Assembly (NCBI RefSeq): GCF_013002705.1
Contig: NZ_JABEND010000014.1
Coordinates: forward strand, 1-64,000
Direction: 5' to 3'
Length of the DNA stretch: 64,000 bases
Source: Nakamurella aerolata
GTDB taxonomy: Bacteria; Actinomycetota; Actinomycetes; Mycobacteriales; Nakamurellaceae
Within the stretch, counting starts at the first letter, position 1. The number at the start of each line of letters is the position of its first letter. Both the position numbers and the translations under genes were made by a program. This document shows, piece by piece, positions 6,666 through 46,488 of this stretch. The notes beneath the pieces are model-generated. The model worked only from the letters and a program-made list of their open reading frames with translations. It was not told the DNA's origin and did no database searches.

Positions 6666-7752
6666 CGGTGCCCTCGCCGCCGGCCGCGGCCAGCCGCTGT
6701 GCCCGGTCGGCGGACTCCAGCGCGTCGAGCACCGCGTCCAGATCACCGTCGAGCACCGCGTCGAGGTTGTAGGCCTTGTAACCGACCCGGTGGTCGGCGA
6801 TCCGATTCTCCGGAAAGTTGTAGGTACGCACCCGTTCCGAGCGGTCGACGGTGCGGACCTGGGAGCGGCGGGCGTCGGCCTGCGCCGCCTCGGCCTCTTC
6901 CCGAGCGGCCACCAGCAGCCGAGACCGCAGGATGCGCAGGGCCTGTTCCTTGTTCTGCAGTTGCGACTTCTCGTTCTGGCAGCTCACCACGATGCCGGTG
7001 GGCAGGTGGGTGATGCGCACCGCGGAATCGGTGGTATTCACCGACTGCCCGCCCGGCCCTGACGACCGGAACACGTCGATCCGCAGCTCGTTCGGATCCA
7101 CCGTGACGTCGACGTCCTCGGCCTCGGGGGCGACGAAAACCCCGGCCGCCGAAGTGTGGATGCGGCCCTGCGACTCGGTGACAGGCACCCGCTGCACCCG
7201 GTGCACGCCGCCCTCGTACTTGAGCCGGGCCCACACGCCGTCCGGCGGTGCCGGGTTGCCGCGCGCCTTCACCCCGACGGTGACCGAGGTGTAGCCGCCC
7301 AGCTCGGATTCGGTGGCGGACAGGATTTCGGTGGCAAAGCCGCGCCTATCCGCATAGCGCAGATACATGCGCAGCAGGTCGCCGGCGAACAGCGCCGATT
7401 CCTCGCCGCCCTCACCGGCTTTCACCTCGAGGATGATGTCTTTGGCGTCGTCCGGATCGCGCGGTGCCAGCAGCTCGGCGAGCTCGGCCTCAAGGGTGTC
7501 GACCCGCTCGGCGAGCTGCCGGGACTCCTCGGCGAACGAGGCGTCCTCGTCGGCGAGCTCCCTGGCGGCACCGAGATCGGCCCTGGCGGAATCCAGCGCG
7601 GTGATGGTGTTGATCACCGGGGTGAGCTCCGCGTAACGGCGACCCAACCGGCGGGCCGTGTGCTGATCGGCGTGCACGGCCGGATCCGCCAACTGCTGCT
7701 CAAGCTCCCGGTACTCGGACAGCAGCGCGGAGTGCGCGGCGGCAGTGGTCAT
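6658..7752 (-). CDS. prfA: Peptide chain release factor 1
   Basis: RF1 recognises UAA and UAG and triggers peptide release. The protein has 364 residues: a coiled-coil domain 1, a codon-recognition domain (the usual PxT-type tripeptide region; [20 protein letters not shown] is conserved family sequence), the catalytic GGQ in SGPGGQSVN, and the conserved tail [21 protein letters not shown] chose the ATG at 7752, preceded by a GTG; the upstream part of the open frame reads through the rpmE terminator and is not coding. It is coupled to prmC by overlap. Confidence 0.96.
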
Positions 7753-7830
7753 CACAGCTCGATTCGATGGATGGGGACGTGCAGGGTGACGCGGGCACGC
7801 ACTCGGCCAGGTGCCGGAGGTGCGGCCCAG

Positions 7831-7872
7831 CAAGCAAAACGGCGCCCGCCGGCCGAAGCCGGGCGGGCGCCG
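7831..7872 (-). terminator. Intrinsic terminator after rpmE
   Basis: A GC-rich hairpin (about 13 bp arms, cggcgcccgccgg against a near-perfect complement) occupies 7840-7872. Read on the minus strand it is followed by TTTTGCTTG. It lies directly after the rpmE stop and should end most rpmE transcripts before prfA. Confidence 0.7.
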
Positions 7873-7882
7873 CAAGAACCGG

Positions 7883-8095
7883 TTAGCGGTTGCGCTTGCC
7901 GTAGCGAGCCTCGAAGCGGGCGACACGGCCGCCGGTGTCGAGGATCTTCTGCTTGCCGGTGTAGAAGGGGTGGCAGTTGGAGCAGACCTCGACGTTGATG
8001 TGACCGGAGGTCTCGGTGCTGTGCGTGGTGAAGGTGTTGCCGCAGCCGCAGCTCACCTGCGTGGTGACGTACTCGGGGTGAATACCGCTCTTCAT
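7883..8095 (-). CDS. rpmE: 50S ribosomal protein L31, zinc-binding form
   Basis: A 70-residue L31 starting [10 protein letters not shown]. The Cys ligands CGC and CSNC are all present, so this is the zinc-containing (C+) type rather than the zinc-free paralogue made under zinc starvation. The ATG at 8095 has a good AAAGGAT Shine-Dalgarno. It sits between rho and prfA as in other actinobacteria, except that an AbiEi-like gene now separates it from rho. Confidence 0.96.
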
Positions 8096-8350
8096 CGTGG
8101 ATCCTTTCGAGGGCTCCGGGTCGGCCGGCCCGCCTGAGGCGGTCACCGTTGCTGCCGTGAACCGGTGCCGGGATGGGGGTTGACGTGCGCCGAAACCCGT
8201 GTTTCAGCGCCGATCCAGTGTGCCATGGCTGGCCACGTGAGTGTTAACCGGCGAGCCCGCTGCCGTATTCCGAATCCAGTGCCCGCGCGCCCGGGCGCCC
8301 GGGCGCCGGGGTATCCGGAGCGTCCGAGGCGTCCGAGGCGTCCGGGCGCA
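8096..8350. other. Leader region of rpmE with short tandem repeats
   Basis: No gene is visible. The region contains alternating gcgcccggg runs around 8284-8310 and three tandem copies of a 10-mer (gcgtccgagg type) at 8321-8346. The rpmE promoter must lie here on the minus strand, but I could not fix its boxes. Confidence 0.4.
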
Positions 8351-8422
8351 TCACAGCTGAGTTCGCACGTCACAGCCCGGTTGGTTGACGAATCCGGCTG
8401 TGATGCGCGAACTCGGCTGTGA
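8351..8422. repeat. Long palindrome, family copy 1 (left of AbiEi-like gene)
   Basis: The arms at 8351-8380 and 8394-8422 are complementary at about 26 of 29 positions (core gagttcgc and tcacagcc against ggctgtga and gcgaactc). The loop is about 13 nt. A second copy in the same orientation lies at 9533-9604, so the pair brackets the gene at 8435-9415. The copies differ mainly in the loop and at a few arm positions. Confidence 0.8.
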
Positions 8423-8434
8423 GCTGCCCCGACC

Positions 8435-9415
8435 TCACAGCTCAAGGGGGCGCCAGGGCAGCGGCCGCCAAAAGCCACGCGGTTTCGGCGCACCGCGGCG
8501 GGACGCCAGCATGCGGACAGCCCGCTCCACCAACCGTCTCGGTGACGCCTGATCCTGACGCTGGATCCGCAGCACCAACCAGCCGAGCTCGGTGAAGGAA
8601 TCCTGCCGGTACTTCTCGTCCATGATCACCGTGCTGAGGTCACGCTCTCCGCGCAGTTCGCGGTACTTCCCCTGGCCGTCGTACTCCCACAGCAACCCGG
8701 CCTCTTCGATCATGCCGTCGGCGCGCCCGACGAAGCGCCGCTGCTCATCGAAAACCTCCACCTGCGCTTCGCTCGGCGGCAGCCCGGCCTCGGCGAAGAC
8801 CACCCGTACCCAACTCTCCGGTGGGCTCTCGGCGCGGCCGTCCACCAGACGCAGCGCGCGCCGGGCCGCCGCGATGCCCGGCCGCCGGTCTTGGCGACCG
8901 AAGTGCTCGATCAGCGCGTCCGGCCGGCACAGCCCCGAATGCAGCGCGGCATCGGCGACCGTCACCGCCGTCAACAACGGGGCGGTTCTGGCGACGTCCA
9001 CCAGGGTGCGAGCGGGGGTGGTGATGCGGGCCGGGCCGATGGCGGTGCTGACGGTGGTGACCTCGTCGTCCGCGAGTTGCGCGGTGTGCACCCATAGCCG
9101 CGGCTCGCGCCGGCCACCGCCGCGCCGGCTCCGGGTGAGCTGCACCTGAGCGGTATTGGTGCCCTGCGCCAGCGGCAGCCCCCAGACGGCGGCTGCGGAG
9201 AGATGGCTGAGCACCGATGCGTTGGTGCCGTGCGCCACCGCCAGCGACCGGCTGACGAATGCCTCCGACTCCCAGACCGCGGGTACCGGAACCCGATACA
9301 CCCCGGGCGTCACCGGTTCCAGCTCGCCCCTGCGCAGCCGGGTGCGGATCTCGGCGTCGCTGAAACCGTTGGCCAGCAACGAGGTTCGGGTCACCAACTC
9401 GGCGGCAGCATCCAC
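8435..9415 (-). CDS. AbiEi-like antitoxin-domain protein with a C-terminal endonuclease-like domain
   Basis: A 326-residue protein. Residues 1-110 follow the winged-helix layout of AbiEi-type regulators (LVTRTSLLANGFSDAEIRTR, RRGELEPVTPGVYRVP, LSHLSAAAVWGLPL). The last 110 residues resemble the DUF559/Vsr-like nuclease fold: ESWVRVVFAEAGLPPSEAQVEV, then GRADGMIEEAGLLWEYDGQ with acidic residues on a beta strand, then a Lys/Arg-rich part. Such two-domain proteins are common and scattered in actinobacteria, usually without a partner toxin gene, and none is seen here. It is inserted between rho and rpmE, normally neighbours, and is flanked by two copies of a long palindrome. Confidence 0.75.
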   Translation of the reverse strand: MDAAAELVTRTSLLANGFSDAEIRTRLRRGELEPVTPGVYRVPVPAVWESEAFVSRSLAVAHGTNASVLSHLSAAAVWGLPLAQGTNTAQVQLTRSRRGGGRREPRLWVHTAQLADDEVTTVSTAIGPARITTPARTLVDVARTAPLLTAVTVADAALHSGLCRPDALIEHFGRQDRRPGIAAARRALRLVDGRAESPPESWVRVVFAEAGLPPSEAQVEVFDEQRRFVGRADGMIEEAGLLWEYDGQGKYRELRGERDLSTVIMDEKYRQDSFTELGWLVLRIQRQDQASPRRLVERAVRMLASRRGAPKPRGFWRPLPWRPLEL

Positions 9416-9532
9416 CCGTCCAGCATGGTCACCAGCTGGTCATCGCACAGCTGCCGACCGCAGATTGTGGATGAATGGGCGGATGGAGACGGCGCCTGTG
9501 GACAACTCGGCAGCGCATCCCGTCCGCCGACC

Positions 9533-9604
9533 TCACAGCTGAGTTCCCGCATCACAGCCCGGTTAGTTGACCATTCCGGCTGTGATGCGCGAACTCGGCT
9601 GTGA
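9533..9604. repeat. Long palindrome, family copy 2 (right of AbiEi-like gene)
   Basis: The arms are at 9533-9562 and 9576-9604. The copy has the same orientation as 8351-8422 and almost identical sequence. The right arm (ggctgtgatgcgcgaactcg core) is unchanged between the copies, while the left arm and loop carry substitutions. Confidence 0.8.
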
Positions 9605-9686
9605 TGTGCCGCGGGCTGACGCTCCGGACGACGCGCCAACGCCGCCGGGGACGCCGGCAAGCCGGGGACGCCGGCAGGCCGGGAAC

Positions 9687-20843: not shown

Positions 20844-20915
20844 GCCCCCGTAGCTCAGGGGATAGAGCACCGCCCTCCGGAGGCGGGTGCGCAGGTTCGA
20901 ATCCTGCCGGGGGCA
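20844..20915 (+). tRNA. tRNA-Arg (anticodon CCG)
   Basis: Complete cloverleaf: acceptor GCCCCCG/CGGGGGC, D arm GCTCAGGGGATAGAGC, anticodon stem CCGCC/GGCGG with loop CTCCGGA (anticodon CCG at 20877-20879), T arm with GGTTCGAATCC. The discriminator base is A; CCA is not encoded. TTGGGA and TACAGT about 19 bp apart just upstream could be its promoter. Confidence 0.96.
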
Positions 20916-21070
20916 CAGTTGGTTCGGTTTGTCGTTTCCCTTTACTTTCGGCCCCGTGTTCGGGAGCCGTCGGCACCGGCGTTCGCCACCGATCACGTGC
21001 TGCGCCATCGCGAACGACGGCTCCAGGGCGCGCTCCCACGCACTGGCCGGTCCCCCACCGAACCCGACCC

Positions 21071-21705
21071 CGCCATCACAACCGTTCCGGTACATCACAA
21101 CCCGTCCAGCACGCTGAAACGGTTGTGATGTGCGGGAATCGTTGTGCTCGCCGCGATACCGCTCAGAGAGGTCCCGGCGATCCTGACGAGAGAGCTGCCG
21201 GCGAACCGGACGAGAGGGATGCGGGAGACCCGGACTCCCCCCACCCCGCCATCACAACCGTTCCGGTACATCACAACCCGTCCAGCACGCTGAAACGGTT
21301 GTGATGTGCGGAAAGTGTTGTGCTCGCCGCGATACCGCTCAGAGAGGTCCCGGCGATCCTGACGAGAGAGCTGCCGGCGAACCGGACGAGAGGGATGCCG
21401 GAGACCCGGACTCCGCCCACCCCGCCATCACAACCGTTCCGGTACACCACAACCCGTCCAGCACGCTGGAACGGTTGCGACGTGCGGAAAGCGTTGTGCT
21501 CGCCGCGATACCGCTCAGAGAGGTCCCGGCGATCCGGACGAGAGGGGCCGGCGATCCGGACGAGAGGGATGCCGGCGATCCCGGACTCCCCCCACCCCGC
21601 CATCACAACCGTTCCGGTACACCACAACCCGTCCAGCACGCTGAAACGGTTGTGATGTGGGGAAAGTGTTGTGCTCGCCGAGACACCACTGAGAGAGGTA
21701 ACCGG
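21071..21705. repeat. 176-bp tandem repeat array, about 3.5 copies, each with a palindrome
   Basis: Units begin at 21071, 21247, 21423 and 21598 (spacing 176, 176, 175). Each begins with the palindrome atcacaaccgttccggtaca...aaacggttgtgatgt and continues with a ~100-bp spacer rich in gacgagag. Units 1 and 2 are almost identical; unit 3 has a rearranged spacer; unit 4 breaks off around 21705. The array fills the gap between tRNA-Arg and the 3' end of the P450 gene. No coding sequence is convincing, since the unit length is not a multiple of 3. Confidence 0.9.
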
Positions 21706-21784: not shown

Positions 21785-23524
21785 TCAGTTCAGCAGGACG
21801 GGCAGCTTCTCCACGCCGTAAACGATCGAGGTCTGGCGATAGTCGAGATCCTCGGGCGGGGTGGCGAGGCGCAGGTTCGGGAAGCGCTTGACCAGCGCCG
21901 GGTAGGCGATGCGCAGTTCCATCCGGCCCAGCTCCGCACCGATGCAGCGATGCGCGCCGTAGCCGAAGGCCAGGTGCTTGGTCGGCGCCCGATCCGGGTC
22001 CACATGATCAAGGTCAATACGATCAAGGTCAATACGATCAAGGTGGGCACGATCCGGCTCAGCACTGCCCAGATCCGTTGCGCCACCGGGCTTTCCGGCA
22101 GCGCCGTTCTTCGCCGGCTTCTCGTCGGCCAGCAGTGCAGGGTCACGGTCGGCCGCGGACAGCGACACCAACACCACGTCGCCCTTGCCGATGTGCACGC
22201 CGTCCACCTCGGAGTCGATCCGCGCGAACCGCGGGAAGGCCACCTGCACAACGGTGAGGTACCGAAGCAGCTCTTCGACAAAGGGGGCGATGGCCTTGGG
22301 ATCGTTGCCGATCCGGTCGCGGGTCAGCGGATCGCGCAGCAGCACCAGCGCTCCCAGCGCGATCATGCTGGCGGTGGTCTCGAAACCACCGACCAGGATG
22401 CCGTCGGCCAAACCAGCCAACTCGCGGTCGCTGATCGAGTCCCCGTGCTCGCGGATGATCATGCCGAGCAGCCCGTCCCCCGGCTCCTTGCGTTGCTGCG
22501 CGACCACGCCCATCAGATAGTCGAGCGATTCGCTGATCGCGCCGAGCGACGCACCGGCGCCGGCGAACAGGTCGAACCGGGCCACCGACAACCGTTGGAA
22601 CGCTTCACGATCCTCGTAGGGCACCCCGAGCAGCTCGCAGATGGCCAGCGACGGGATCGGCAGGGAGAACAGCTCGCACAGGTCCACCGGCTTGCCGCCG
22701 GAGCGGATGTAGCGCTGCTCCATCTCGTCAAGTTGCGCTTCGACGATTTCCTGAAGGCGCGGGGTGAGCCGGGACAGCCGCCGCATGGTGAACTCCGGCG
22801 TCAGGATCTTGCGCAGCCGGGTGTGATCGGGCGGGTCGGCCATGCCGAGGCCCCCTGGATCCTTCTCTTCCGCGTTGCCTCCGATGGCAGCCACCAGCGA
22901 TTCGTCCGCGGCGATGTTGGCGAAGTCGTTCGAGAACGTCTCGGTGTCCGCGAGCACCTGCTTGGCCTGCTGGTAGCCGCTGACCAGGAAAACGTTGACG
23001 CCGAACGGCAACGGCAACTTCGCCACCGGCGTATCGGCGCGCATCGCCGACAGTTCCGGCAGCGGATCCAAACCGTTGCGGCGCAACGGCATCGTCGCCG
23101 ATGCCGGCAATAGCGCCAGCGGCGACCTGCCCCGTTTGGTCTGCCAGGCGACGGCGCGTTTGGCTGCCGCGGCGATCAGCTTCGACCGGCCCGCTGCCAC
23201 CGCGGGCCGGACGCGCCCGACGACCGCTCCCCCGACACCGGCCGCCACCCGGCCGCCGGTGGTGACAGCCGCCCGCGCCTTGCGCACCAACCGGCCGCTG
23301 CGGGAGGCCGGCCGCTGCACCAGATCGAGGTCGGCGGGGTCGGCCGGGTCGTCGGCGGTCGGCTGGACCGGCTGCATGGGTGCGGTGTCTTCGCCGGGGT
23401 CCGGCGCGGACGCCGATTCCGGGGCCGGACGCTGCGACTGGTGCGCGACGGGGCAGCGCGCCGGGGTGCTGGTGTTGGACGATTCCGGTGCCGGGGTGGC
23501 GGAATCCTGTCCGGGCTCACTCAC
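21785..23524 (-). CDS. Cytochrome P450 with a long N-terminal extension and a repeat insertion
   Basis: A heme monooxygenase of 579 residues, far longer than the usual ~400. The catalytic core has the helix-I motif GGFETTAS (near 380), the helix-K ExxR (ELLRY region) and the heme-ligand loop FGYGAHRCIG (near 521). Residues 1-180 are a Pro/Ala/Asp-rich region with CPVAHQSQ and an Ala/Val-rich amphipathic part. Between DPALLADEKP and the heme loop there is an insertion with a 5-residue repeat (LDRID) coded by 15-bp tandem DNA repeats. I chose the GTG at 23524. No redox partner gene is nearby. Substrate unknown. Confidence 0.88.
   Translation of the reverse strand: MSEPGQDSATPAPESSNTSTPARCPVAHQSQRPAPESASAPDPGEDTAPMQPVQPTADDPADPADLDLVQRPASRSGRLVRKARAAVTTGGRVAAGVGGAVVGRVRPAVAAGRSKLIAAAAKRAVAWQTKRGRSPLALLPASATMPLRRNGLDPLPELSAMRADTPVAKLPLPFGVNVFLVSGYQQAKQVLADTETFSNDFANIAADESLVAAIGGNAEEKDPGGLGMADPPDHTRLRKILTPEFTMRRLSRLTPRLQEIVEAQLDEMEQRYIRSGGKPVDLCELFSLPIPSLAICELLGVPYEDREAFQRLSVARFDLFAGAGASLGAISESLDYLMGVVAQQRKEPGDGLLGMIIREHGDSISDRELAGLADGILVGGFETTASMIALGALVLLRDPLTRDRIGNDPKAIAPFVEELLRYLTVVQVAFPRFARIDSEVDGVHIGKGDVVLVSLSAADRDPALLADEKPAKNGAAGKPGGATDLGSAEPDRAHLDRIDLDRIDLDHVDPDRAPTKHLAFGYGAHRCIGAELGRMELRIAYPALVKRFPNLRLATPPEDLDYRQTSIVYGVEKLPVLLN
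22006..22044. repeat. 15-bp tandem repeat inside the P450 gene
   Basis: The unit gatcaaggtcaatac is repeated head to tail at 22006, 22021 and partly 22036, keeping the frame. It encodes the LDRID repeat of the P450 insertion and points to slippage expansion. Confidence 0.85.
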
Positions 23525-42496: not shown

Positions 42497-42580
42497 GCCC
42501 GTGCGACGGCCGACTCAGAGTTCGCCGTCCCCGTCAGCCCTGCGCCGGCCTCACGACAACGACCGGGCACTTGGTGCGCC

Positions 42581-42652
42581 ATCACAAACCTTTCCGCACG
42601 TCACAACCGTTCCAGCAGACTGAAACGGTTGTGACGTACCGAAACAGTTGTG
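42581..42652. repeat. Long palindrome, dispersed family copy near accD
   Basis: The inner arms acgtcacaaccgtt and aacggttgtgacgt are perfectly complementary, with a 12-nt loop (ccagcagactga). The outer arms (cacaaacctttccgc, accgaaacagttgtg) pair partly. It is clearly of the same family as the array at 21071-21705. A left half only recurs at about 42790-42830. Confidence 0.8.
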
Positions 42653-42940
42653 CTCGTCGGCGGGCAGTCCACAGCGCGGTGTCACACCGCGCGACGCTGC
42701 CTGCCAATGACCCGACCGGCTAGCCAATTGCCAACGGACGTCCCGCGAACCGCTGTCTCGCGAGGCAACGTCCCGCGAGCCCACCTCTCGCCATCACACA
42801 CCTTTCCGCACGTCACAACCGTTCCACGACCGACGTGGGCTGCTTGTGGAGGCAGATCGACGCTCGGCGCGGCACAGTGCGCCATGCCCACCACCCCTGC
42901 GCCGGCCGACTGGTGGTGCCATGACCACCAGGTGTGCTGG

Positions 42941-46303: not shown

Positions 46304-46430
46304 CGGTTACTCGCGGGCGCTCCGCAACCAGCGGGCACACCGTGACCATTGTGCACCTTGTGACGGCTGAATACCAGCGTTGCGGCGCGATCGCCGGTAG
46401 ACTCGCCCGCGGAGCCCAGCGATCGGGCTC

Positions 46431-46472
46431 GCGGACGAGGGAGCAGTACCCGCACCACGACAAGACTGACTC
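46431..46472 (+). ncRNA. Guanidine-III riboswitch
   Basis: The 42 nt reproduce the consensus of the guanidine-III (ykkC-III) aptamer: GGACGAGG, then GTACCCG, then GACAAGAC. GCGG pairs with CCGC (P1), and GAGCAGT pairs with ACTGACTC with one bulged A (P2), giving the H-type pseudoknot. It ends a few nt before the AAGGG Shine-Dalgarno of the first SMR gene. Guanidinium binding should free that site and turn on the exporters. A TAGACT box at 46398-46403 may be the promoter -10. Confidence 0.88.
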
Positions 46473-46488
46473 AGAAGGGCCATCAGTC

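Follow-up and report, generated by a model that had tools for sequence, protein, structure and literature searches.

The window, a stretch of 64,000 nucleotides of the Nakamurella aerolata genome analysed here (contig 6, 1-64000), contains a tandem array in which one member of a dispersed ~81-bp palindrome family (family A) has been amplified locally, and two sister families in the same genome (B and C) bracket genes encoding a predicted nuclease with an AbiEi-like N-terminal part. Matching repeats also flank many homologues of these genes in congeneric species. Palindrome families of this kind, family A excepted, are paired with AbiEi-Vsr-like nuclease genes, and their copies have probably spread by binding, cutting and repair.

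The original prediction for this region described a 176-bp tandem array built on one palindrome between tRNA-Arg and a P450 gene, with units 1 and 2 nearly identical, and both aspects were borne out. A repeat search of the window located a 176-nt unit in four copies, which begin at positions 21063, 21239, 21415 and 21590 (spacing 176, 176 and 175), and Tandem Repeats Finder reported a single array with a period of 176, 3.6 copies and a score of 1104. Each unit encompasses a ~81-bp palindrome and a ~95-bp spacer that contains 22-24-bp sub-repeats. Identity to unit 1 is 97% for unit 2 and, over the aligned part, 91% for units 3 and 4. With up to two mismatches allowed, the window contains 15 occurrences of the 13-base arm CATCACAACCGTT, where shuffles predict 0.8. 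A further family-A copy, accompanied by part of the array spacer (86% identity over unit positions 1-153), was detected on contig 8, ~510 bp from a tRNA-Ser gene. Since units 3 and 4 are ~9% off unit 1, and a partial unit is present on contig 8, an assembly duplication of one unit cannot explain the whole array. The coordinates of the features in the window are collected in Table 1. The P450 ORF on the far side of the array contains 15-bp tandem repeats of its own (21997-22044).

Table 1. Palindromes and associated genes in the window.
Feature	Position	Strand	Remarks
Family-C palindrome, 3' side of nuclease gene	8346-8428	+	
Nuclease gene	8435-9415	-	326-aa protein: AbiEi-like part and predicted Vsr/I-Bth0305I-like domain
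Family-C palindrome, 5' side of nuclease gene	9529-9610	+	114 bp upstream of the gene
tRNA-Arg(CCG)	20844-20916	+	156 bp before the first array palindrome
Tandem array	21063-21699	.	Units of 176/176/175 bp, last unit partial
Family-A palindrome, copy 1	21072-21152	+	
Family-A palindrome, copy 2	21248-21328	+	
Family-A palindrome, copy 3	21424-21504	+	
Family-A palindrome, copy 4	21599-21679	+	
P450 ORF	21785-23587	-	Next ORF after the array, opposite strand to tRNA-Arg(CCG); matches Pfam p450
Dispersed family-A palindrome	42578-42659	+	Convergent gene gap
Partial family-A element	42790-42826	+	One arm, weak match (23 bits)

A structured non-coding RNA had been put forward as one explanation for the array, but the comparison of family-A copies did not sustain it. 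Across 33 copies, the two arms pair in 78.9% of cells, a value below all 500 shuffles (mean 81.0%), nearly every shuffle contains more double changes in the arms than the genuine copies do, and Rfam yields no family at threshold within the array. In view of the missing arm covariation a conserved RNA hairpin is unlikely, and this candidate was rejected. What is conserved in family A are fixed bases at mirror positions in both arms, largely CACA, GTAC, CACA and CAGC, and this base-specific, mirror-symmetric conservation has the look of a protein site. Elsewhere in the window, a Guanidine-III riboswitch (46409-46475) scores above the Rfam gathering cut-off.

BLAST and covariance-model searches of the 4.35-Mb N. 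aerolata genome identified the family-A palindrome at many sites, and the weakest of these matches defined families B and C, which present the same layout with other letters. In all three families each arm carries two family-specific half-sites 19 bp apart, resulting in four half-sites per element (right, right, left, left); the family-A arm consensus contains GtAC and lacks GTAG, one of the two tags (GTAG or CGTC) that go with the 20-40 bp stem of REPs. In the loci fetched from this genome (356 kb of 4.35 Mb), nhmmer returned at least 63 matches, at least 61 of them with a score of no less than 40 (A, 37; B, 12; C, 12). The two matches under 40 were excluded from the gap, target-site and cluster counts, and these copy numbers, as well as the 46 clusters into which the 61 copies fall, are lower bounds. 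Local amplification is common, with two to four palindromes in 9 of the 46 clusters, three of which mix families A and B. A mixed array with the order B-A-B-A and spacings of 128, 165 and 128 is found at C1:472984-473486 (L011), where two families have been amplified together. All 61 copies lie outside the called genes, apart from an 8-bp overlap at one of them; gene calling was based on codon usage and missed the B-flanked nuclease gene on contig 12. The copies occupy 28 convergent, 28 tandem and 5 divergent gaps. At the palindrome edges, direct duplications of k = 2-4 were slightly above shuffled pairings, with arm symmetry as a possible cause; no excess was seen at k = 5-9, and the copies in this genome show no clear target-site duplication overall. 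Searches of 16 congeners with families A, B and C as DNA, and with A as a covariance model, yielded no match to these families among the matches listed, and one exact family-A pattern had zero matches in genome and viral contig collections, from which records near the window are possibly absent.

The proximity of the array to tRNA-Arg had also raised the question of whether other tRNA genes carry similar elements, and the analysis of the palindrome loci indicates that they do. A tRNA gene (46 were considered) is found no more than 520 bp away at 8 of the 26 family-A loci, at 1 of 10 for B and at 0 of 11 for C, with mixed-cluster loci counted under both families and the 520-bp limit chosen after the data were seen. 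By chance, 0.9% of loci would be expected there if they fell anywhere in the genome, and no more than 4% if confined to intergenic DNA; for family A the chance value is ~6e-6 even under the assumption that every tRNA flank is intergenic. Closeness to tRNA genes therefore exceeds chance for family A but is no rule of the palindrome class. The original prediction suggested an integration hot spot, and tRNA-directed integration as a general mechanism is not supported, given the lack of a tRNA gene within 520 bp at 18/26 A, 9/10 B and 11/11 C loci, and the sister families bracketing nuclease genes.

The nuclease gene of the window lies between two family-C palindromes, in a cassette spanning positions 8346-9610, and on contig 12 two family-B palindromes flank a homologue 59% identical to the window protein. 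A profile built from these two proteins (A2) identified two genes in the N. aerolata genome at E <= 1e-5, one C-bracketed and one B-bracketed, with no third gene at that threshold, and found homologues in 15 of 16 congeners. The neighbours of the window gene encode Rho and L31, and those of the other copy encode EF-Tu, DUF3224 and MDMPI_N proteins; no toxin genes such as AbiEii (DUF1814) were detected beside either gene among the ORFs checked. Homologues were likewise not found in plasmids and phages by tblastn with one protein, nor by a wider profile (A3) in 80 lysA loci of other actinobacteria. An L31-Actinobacteria leader (8112-8171, minus strand) lies close to the cassette.

The domain composition of the window protein was addressed with sequence profiles and with an AlphaFold model (pLDDT 94). 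PADLOC AbiEi profiles matched its N-terminal part (1.1e-17) and up to 30 of 33 homologues, and Pfam AbiEi_4 remained below cut-off for the window protein. Model residues 4-192 align with AbiEi (6y8q; Z 9.0, 173 residues, 5.8 A), and residues 197-308 with the homing endonuclease I-Bth0305I (3r3p; Z 11.3, 97/97 residues, 2.4 A) and with Vsr (Z 10.2). DUF559 was detected in 5 and MTES_1575 in 4 of the 33 homologues (E <= 0.01). Residues A74, D155, S197, D233, E244, D246, G247 and R270 are invariant in the 33 homologues, and E196 and E200 are nearly so. On the basis of the model and the profile matches, the window protein is predicted to be an AbiEi-like module fused to a Vsr/EDxHD-type nuclease.

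The association between nuclease genes and flanking repeats was then evaluated in the congeners by aligning the 450 bp on each side of a gene to each other on both strands and recording the local score. The analysis included 50 loci, from 64 homologue rows, and 354 control genes of 600-1500 bp from spread samples of two congeners. A flank score of 50 or more was obtained for 26/50 homologue loci and 4/354 controls, of 60 or more for 19/50 and 2/354, and of 70 or more for 14/50 and 1/354. Without the two N. aerolata loci that prompted the idea, 24/48 loci reach 50; no such match is present in 24 of the 50 homologues. Matches occur in 16 of 27 loci with a homology score above 100 bits and in 10 of 23 below. 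The four control matches include one nuclease homologue that was absent from the locus list and one Mutator-family transposase; the latter gene (L265 in G002, 7394-8782) has matching inverted flanks. A crude cut on self-complementarity is passed by 10 of the 26 matches, the N. aerolata C pair passing and the B pair failing, and some matches are tandem repeats. L241 scores 24 in this test because its ORF was drawn over one palindrome; a separate comparison gave 136 bits.

The letters of the bracketing repeats mostly differ from gene to gene, and of 2450 ordered pairs of flanks from different loci, 11 match with at least 40 bits; L241 and L230 have a 45-nt piece in common, and the flank matches of L210, L212 and L215 to L211 probably fall within tuf, which these loci share. 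Bracketing palindromes also occur as solo copies in spread samples, two for L227 family 2 (G014) and one for L253 family 1 (G002), and no further copies were found for L250 and L254 in 418 kb of G002 or for L212 in 464 kb of G014. The 5'-side palindrome of L240 has one copy elsewhere, its own flanks matching weakly (score 33), and the extra matches of L233 lie only ~2 kb from its own gene. In L230 (G011, 433-2882), a nuclease homologue lies inside an array of ~10 repeat copies, present on both sides, which resembles the window array with a gene in its middle.

These counts also bear on another explanation, namely that these are ordinary REP-like palindromes without a dedicated enzyme, for instance bidirectional terminators, in insertion-tolerant gaps beside tRNA and nuclease genes. 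The location of 28 of the 61 copies in convergent gaps and the enrichment of family A beside tRNA genes are in agreement with such elements, but this explanation hardly accounts for repeats on both sides of 26/50 homologues versus 4/354 other genes, nor for arms that lack the covariation expected of an RNA stem, and we consider it very improbable.

One recurrent genomic context for the nuclease homologues is the neighbourhood of tuf, which they adjoin in six species (N. aerolata, G016, G014, G001, G005 and G008). The loci concerned are L210, L211, L212, L214, L215 and L219. Flank scores of 52-74 were obtained for the tuf-side homologues of N. aerolata, G016, G014 and G005, with repeats that differ between species, and no flank match was detected for those of G001 and G008. 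The simplest reading of these sequences is that the nuclease gene beside tuf stays put while its palindromes change.

A feature shared by many of these repeats is an internal cadence. The 19-bp spacing had been spotted by eye before it was evaluated. The set comprised 28 segments, of which 26 came from the flanks of homologues and the others were the A consensus and one copy of family D (described below); lags of 8-35 were compared with shuffles that keep base composition only. A 9-nt near-repeat was observed at lag 19 in 10/28 segments and at lag 20 in 3/28; other lags were seen at most twice, and shuffles yielded ~0.2 per lag. Two N. aerolata families, A and C, are among the lag-19 segments, and no repeat at lag 19 or 20 is present in 15/28 segments, including N. 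aerolata B and family D.

The tRNA-Arg locus of 15 congeners contains long palindromes in 3 species, and in each of them the centre of one palindrome is no more than ~210 bp from the tRNA gene, in two cases on its 3' side. The palindrome beside tRNA-Arg in G014 (family D) is dispersed at 10 or more other places in that genome, with one 22-nt match in G002. The A3 profile subsequently revealed a distant homologue (L190, 3796-4618; 61.8 bits), matching MTES_1575 and DUF559 in Pfam, that lies between two family-D copies with a flank score of 84. A palindrome family found at tRNA-Arg before any associated gene was known was hence later observed to bracket a nuclease homologue, as predicted. The other two long palindromes beside the same tRNA-Arg are unrelated (L187 in G002, 7673; L181 in G015, 9243): the former has no second copy in 418 kb of G002, and the latter matches itself and one weak site.

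The window cassette is flanked by rho and rpmE (encoding Rho and L31). No nuclease gene was detected in 70 other loci where both genes were found (15 congeners and 55 other actinobacteria; E 1e-4), and given its absence from 70/70 loci the cassette most simply came in within the N. aerolata lineage. An alternative is that whole cassettes (palindrome, gene, palindrome) move, and that solo palindromes are recombination scars left after gene loss, like solo LTRs. This would fit the rho-rpmE cassette, which is most simply an insertion with both ends alike, but it has to contend with one gene each for 12 B and 12 C copies, with 37 A copies for which no gene was found, and with the fetched N. aerolata loci, where no trace of a gene rises above noise close to solo palindromes. 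On balance, we regard it as distinctly improbable. Searches for a family-A gene in those loci (356 kb of 4.35 Mb, with all A copies found) returned noise only, besides the B and C genes. Such a gene may be located elsewhere in the genome and be too distant for A2, a possibility that follows from A2 having missed the family-D gene of G014 that A3 found. Alternatively, family A may be a relic, or may depend on the enzyme of family B or C; at the array locus the enzyme would then be absent, lost or overlooked, or the one that B or C also uses.

The explanation that we favour, spread by binding, cutting and repair, is the following. In the paired families a nuclease gene lies between two palindromes of its own family, with further copies standing alone in intergenic DNA. 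The AbiEi-like part would bind the half-sites and the nuclease would nick or cut at or near the palindrome, with repair of the break copying palindromes to new places and expanding them locally in tandem. Tandem pairs with copied flanks, as in the array, would be by-products of this process. This reading presupposes repair by the host, since joining of the ends is beyond a nuclease by itself.

The same half-sites could instead be operators, with the AbiEi-like protein repressing its own gene and the dispersed copies constituting its regulon. AbiEi-family antitoxins are described as repressing their own promoters via inverted repeats (PMC7319586), one C palindrome is located 114 bp upstream of the window nuclease gene, and the conserved positions are base-specific and mirror-symmetric, like those of protein sites. 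We nevertheless consider an operator role unlikely: a second palindrome lies 3' of the nuclease gene, 5 of 61 copies occupy divergent gaps and the remainder are split evenly between convergent (28) and tandem (28) ones, operators would not be expected to form tandem arrays in which the flanks are copied too, and the conserved nuclease domain would be left without a role.

If these nucleases do go with their own palindromes, proteins that join an AbiEi-like to a DUF559/Vsr-like part, a type without assigned function, would gain a role, and the spread of palindromes would become testable with a new enzyme class. The families would also provide a natural series of protein-site pairs in which the letters change and the geometry is kept, sometimes at one place, as beside tuf. 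More tentatively, the data may outline a second, independently evolved bacterial repeat-and-enzyme system, defined by an AbiEi-Vsr nuclease and half-sites in a kept 19-bp cadence with changing letters, in which ~80-bp palindromes spread by break and repair without a transposase. Searches of open-access literature, which leaves out most papers behind subscription, returned no title or abstract opening that connects palindromic repeats with AbiEi, DUF559 or Vsr proteins.

Each component of the proposed system has known relatives. AbiEi antitoxins and Rv2827c resemble the N-terminal part in the predicted fold of residues 4-192 and in its AbiEi profile matches, and these relatives bind inverted repeats, two of 23 bp in the case of AbiEi and four in that of Rv2827c (PMC7319586). 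They differ in that here the module is fused to a nuclease, the sites are located on both sides of the gene and dispersed, and no toxin gene adjoins it in the ORFs checked. The I-Bth0305I, DUF559 and MTES_1575 nucleases share the nuclease fold, over 97/97 residues of 3r3p, and the corresponding DUF559 and MTES_1575 matches, but here an AbiEi-like module stands in front and the gene is chromosomal and lies between palindromes.

The closest parallel in arrangement are the REP/REPIN-RAYT systems, or REPtrons, which likewise comprise short dispersed intergenic palindromes, with several families per genome and clusters, and an enzyme gene with members of its own family on either side (PMC3116915, PMC8266576, PMC3733652), as seen here for B and C and not found for A. 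The RAYT transposase is the dedicated enzyme described for dispersed bacterial palindromes, the CGTC class of REPs being reported without one (PMC3733652). RAYT was rejected as the palindrome enzyme in N. aerolata: no Y1 transposase was found, with 0 matches to Y1_Tnp (PF01797) in the genome (about 95% complete), and the control was positive in 5 of 14 genomes. Where REPtrons have a Y1 HUH transposase, the enzyme here is predicted to combine a Vsr-like nuclease with an AbiEi-like part; the element here (families A, B and C) is also distinct, with ~81 bp and four half-sites. The system is hence best read as a REPIN/RAYT-like arrangement with an unrelated enzyme. Weighing arrangement above chemistry, it would be a REPtron variant; as neither the enzyme nor the element layout is of the REPtron kind, we regard it as a new kind of system that resembles REPtrons in arrangement and is not a member of them.
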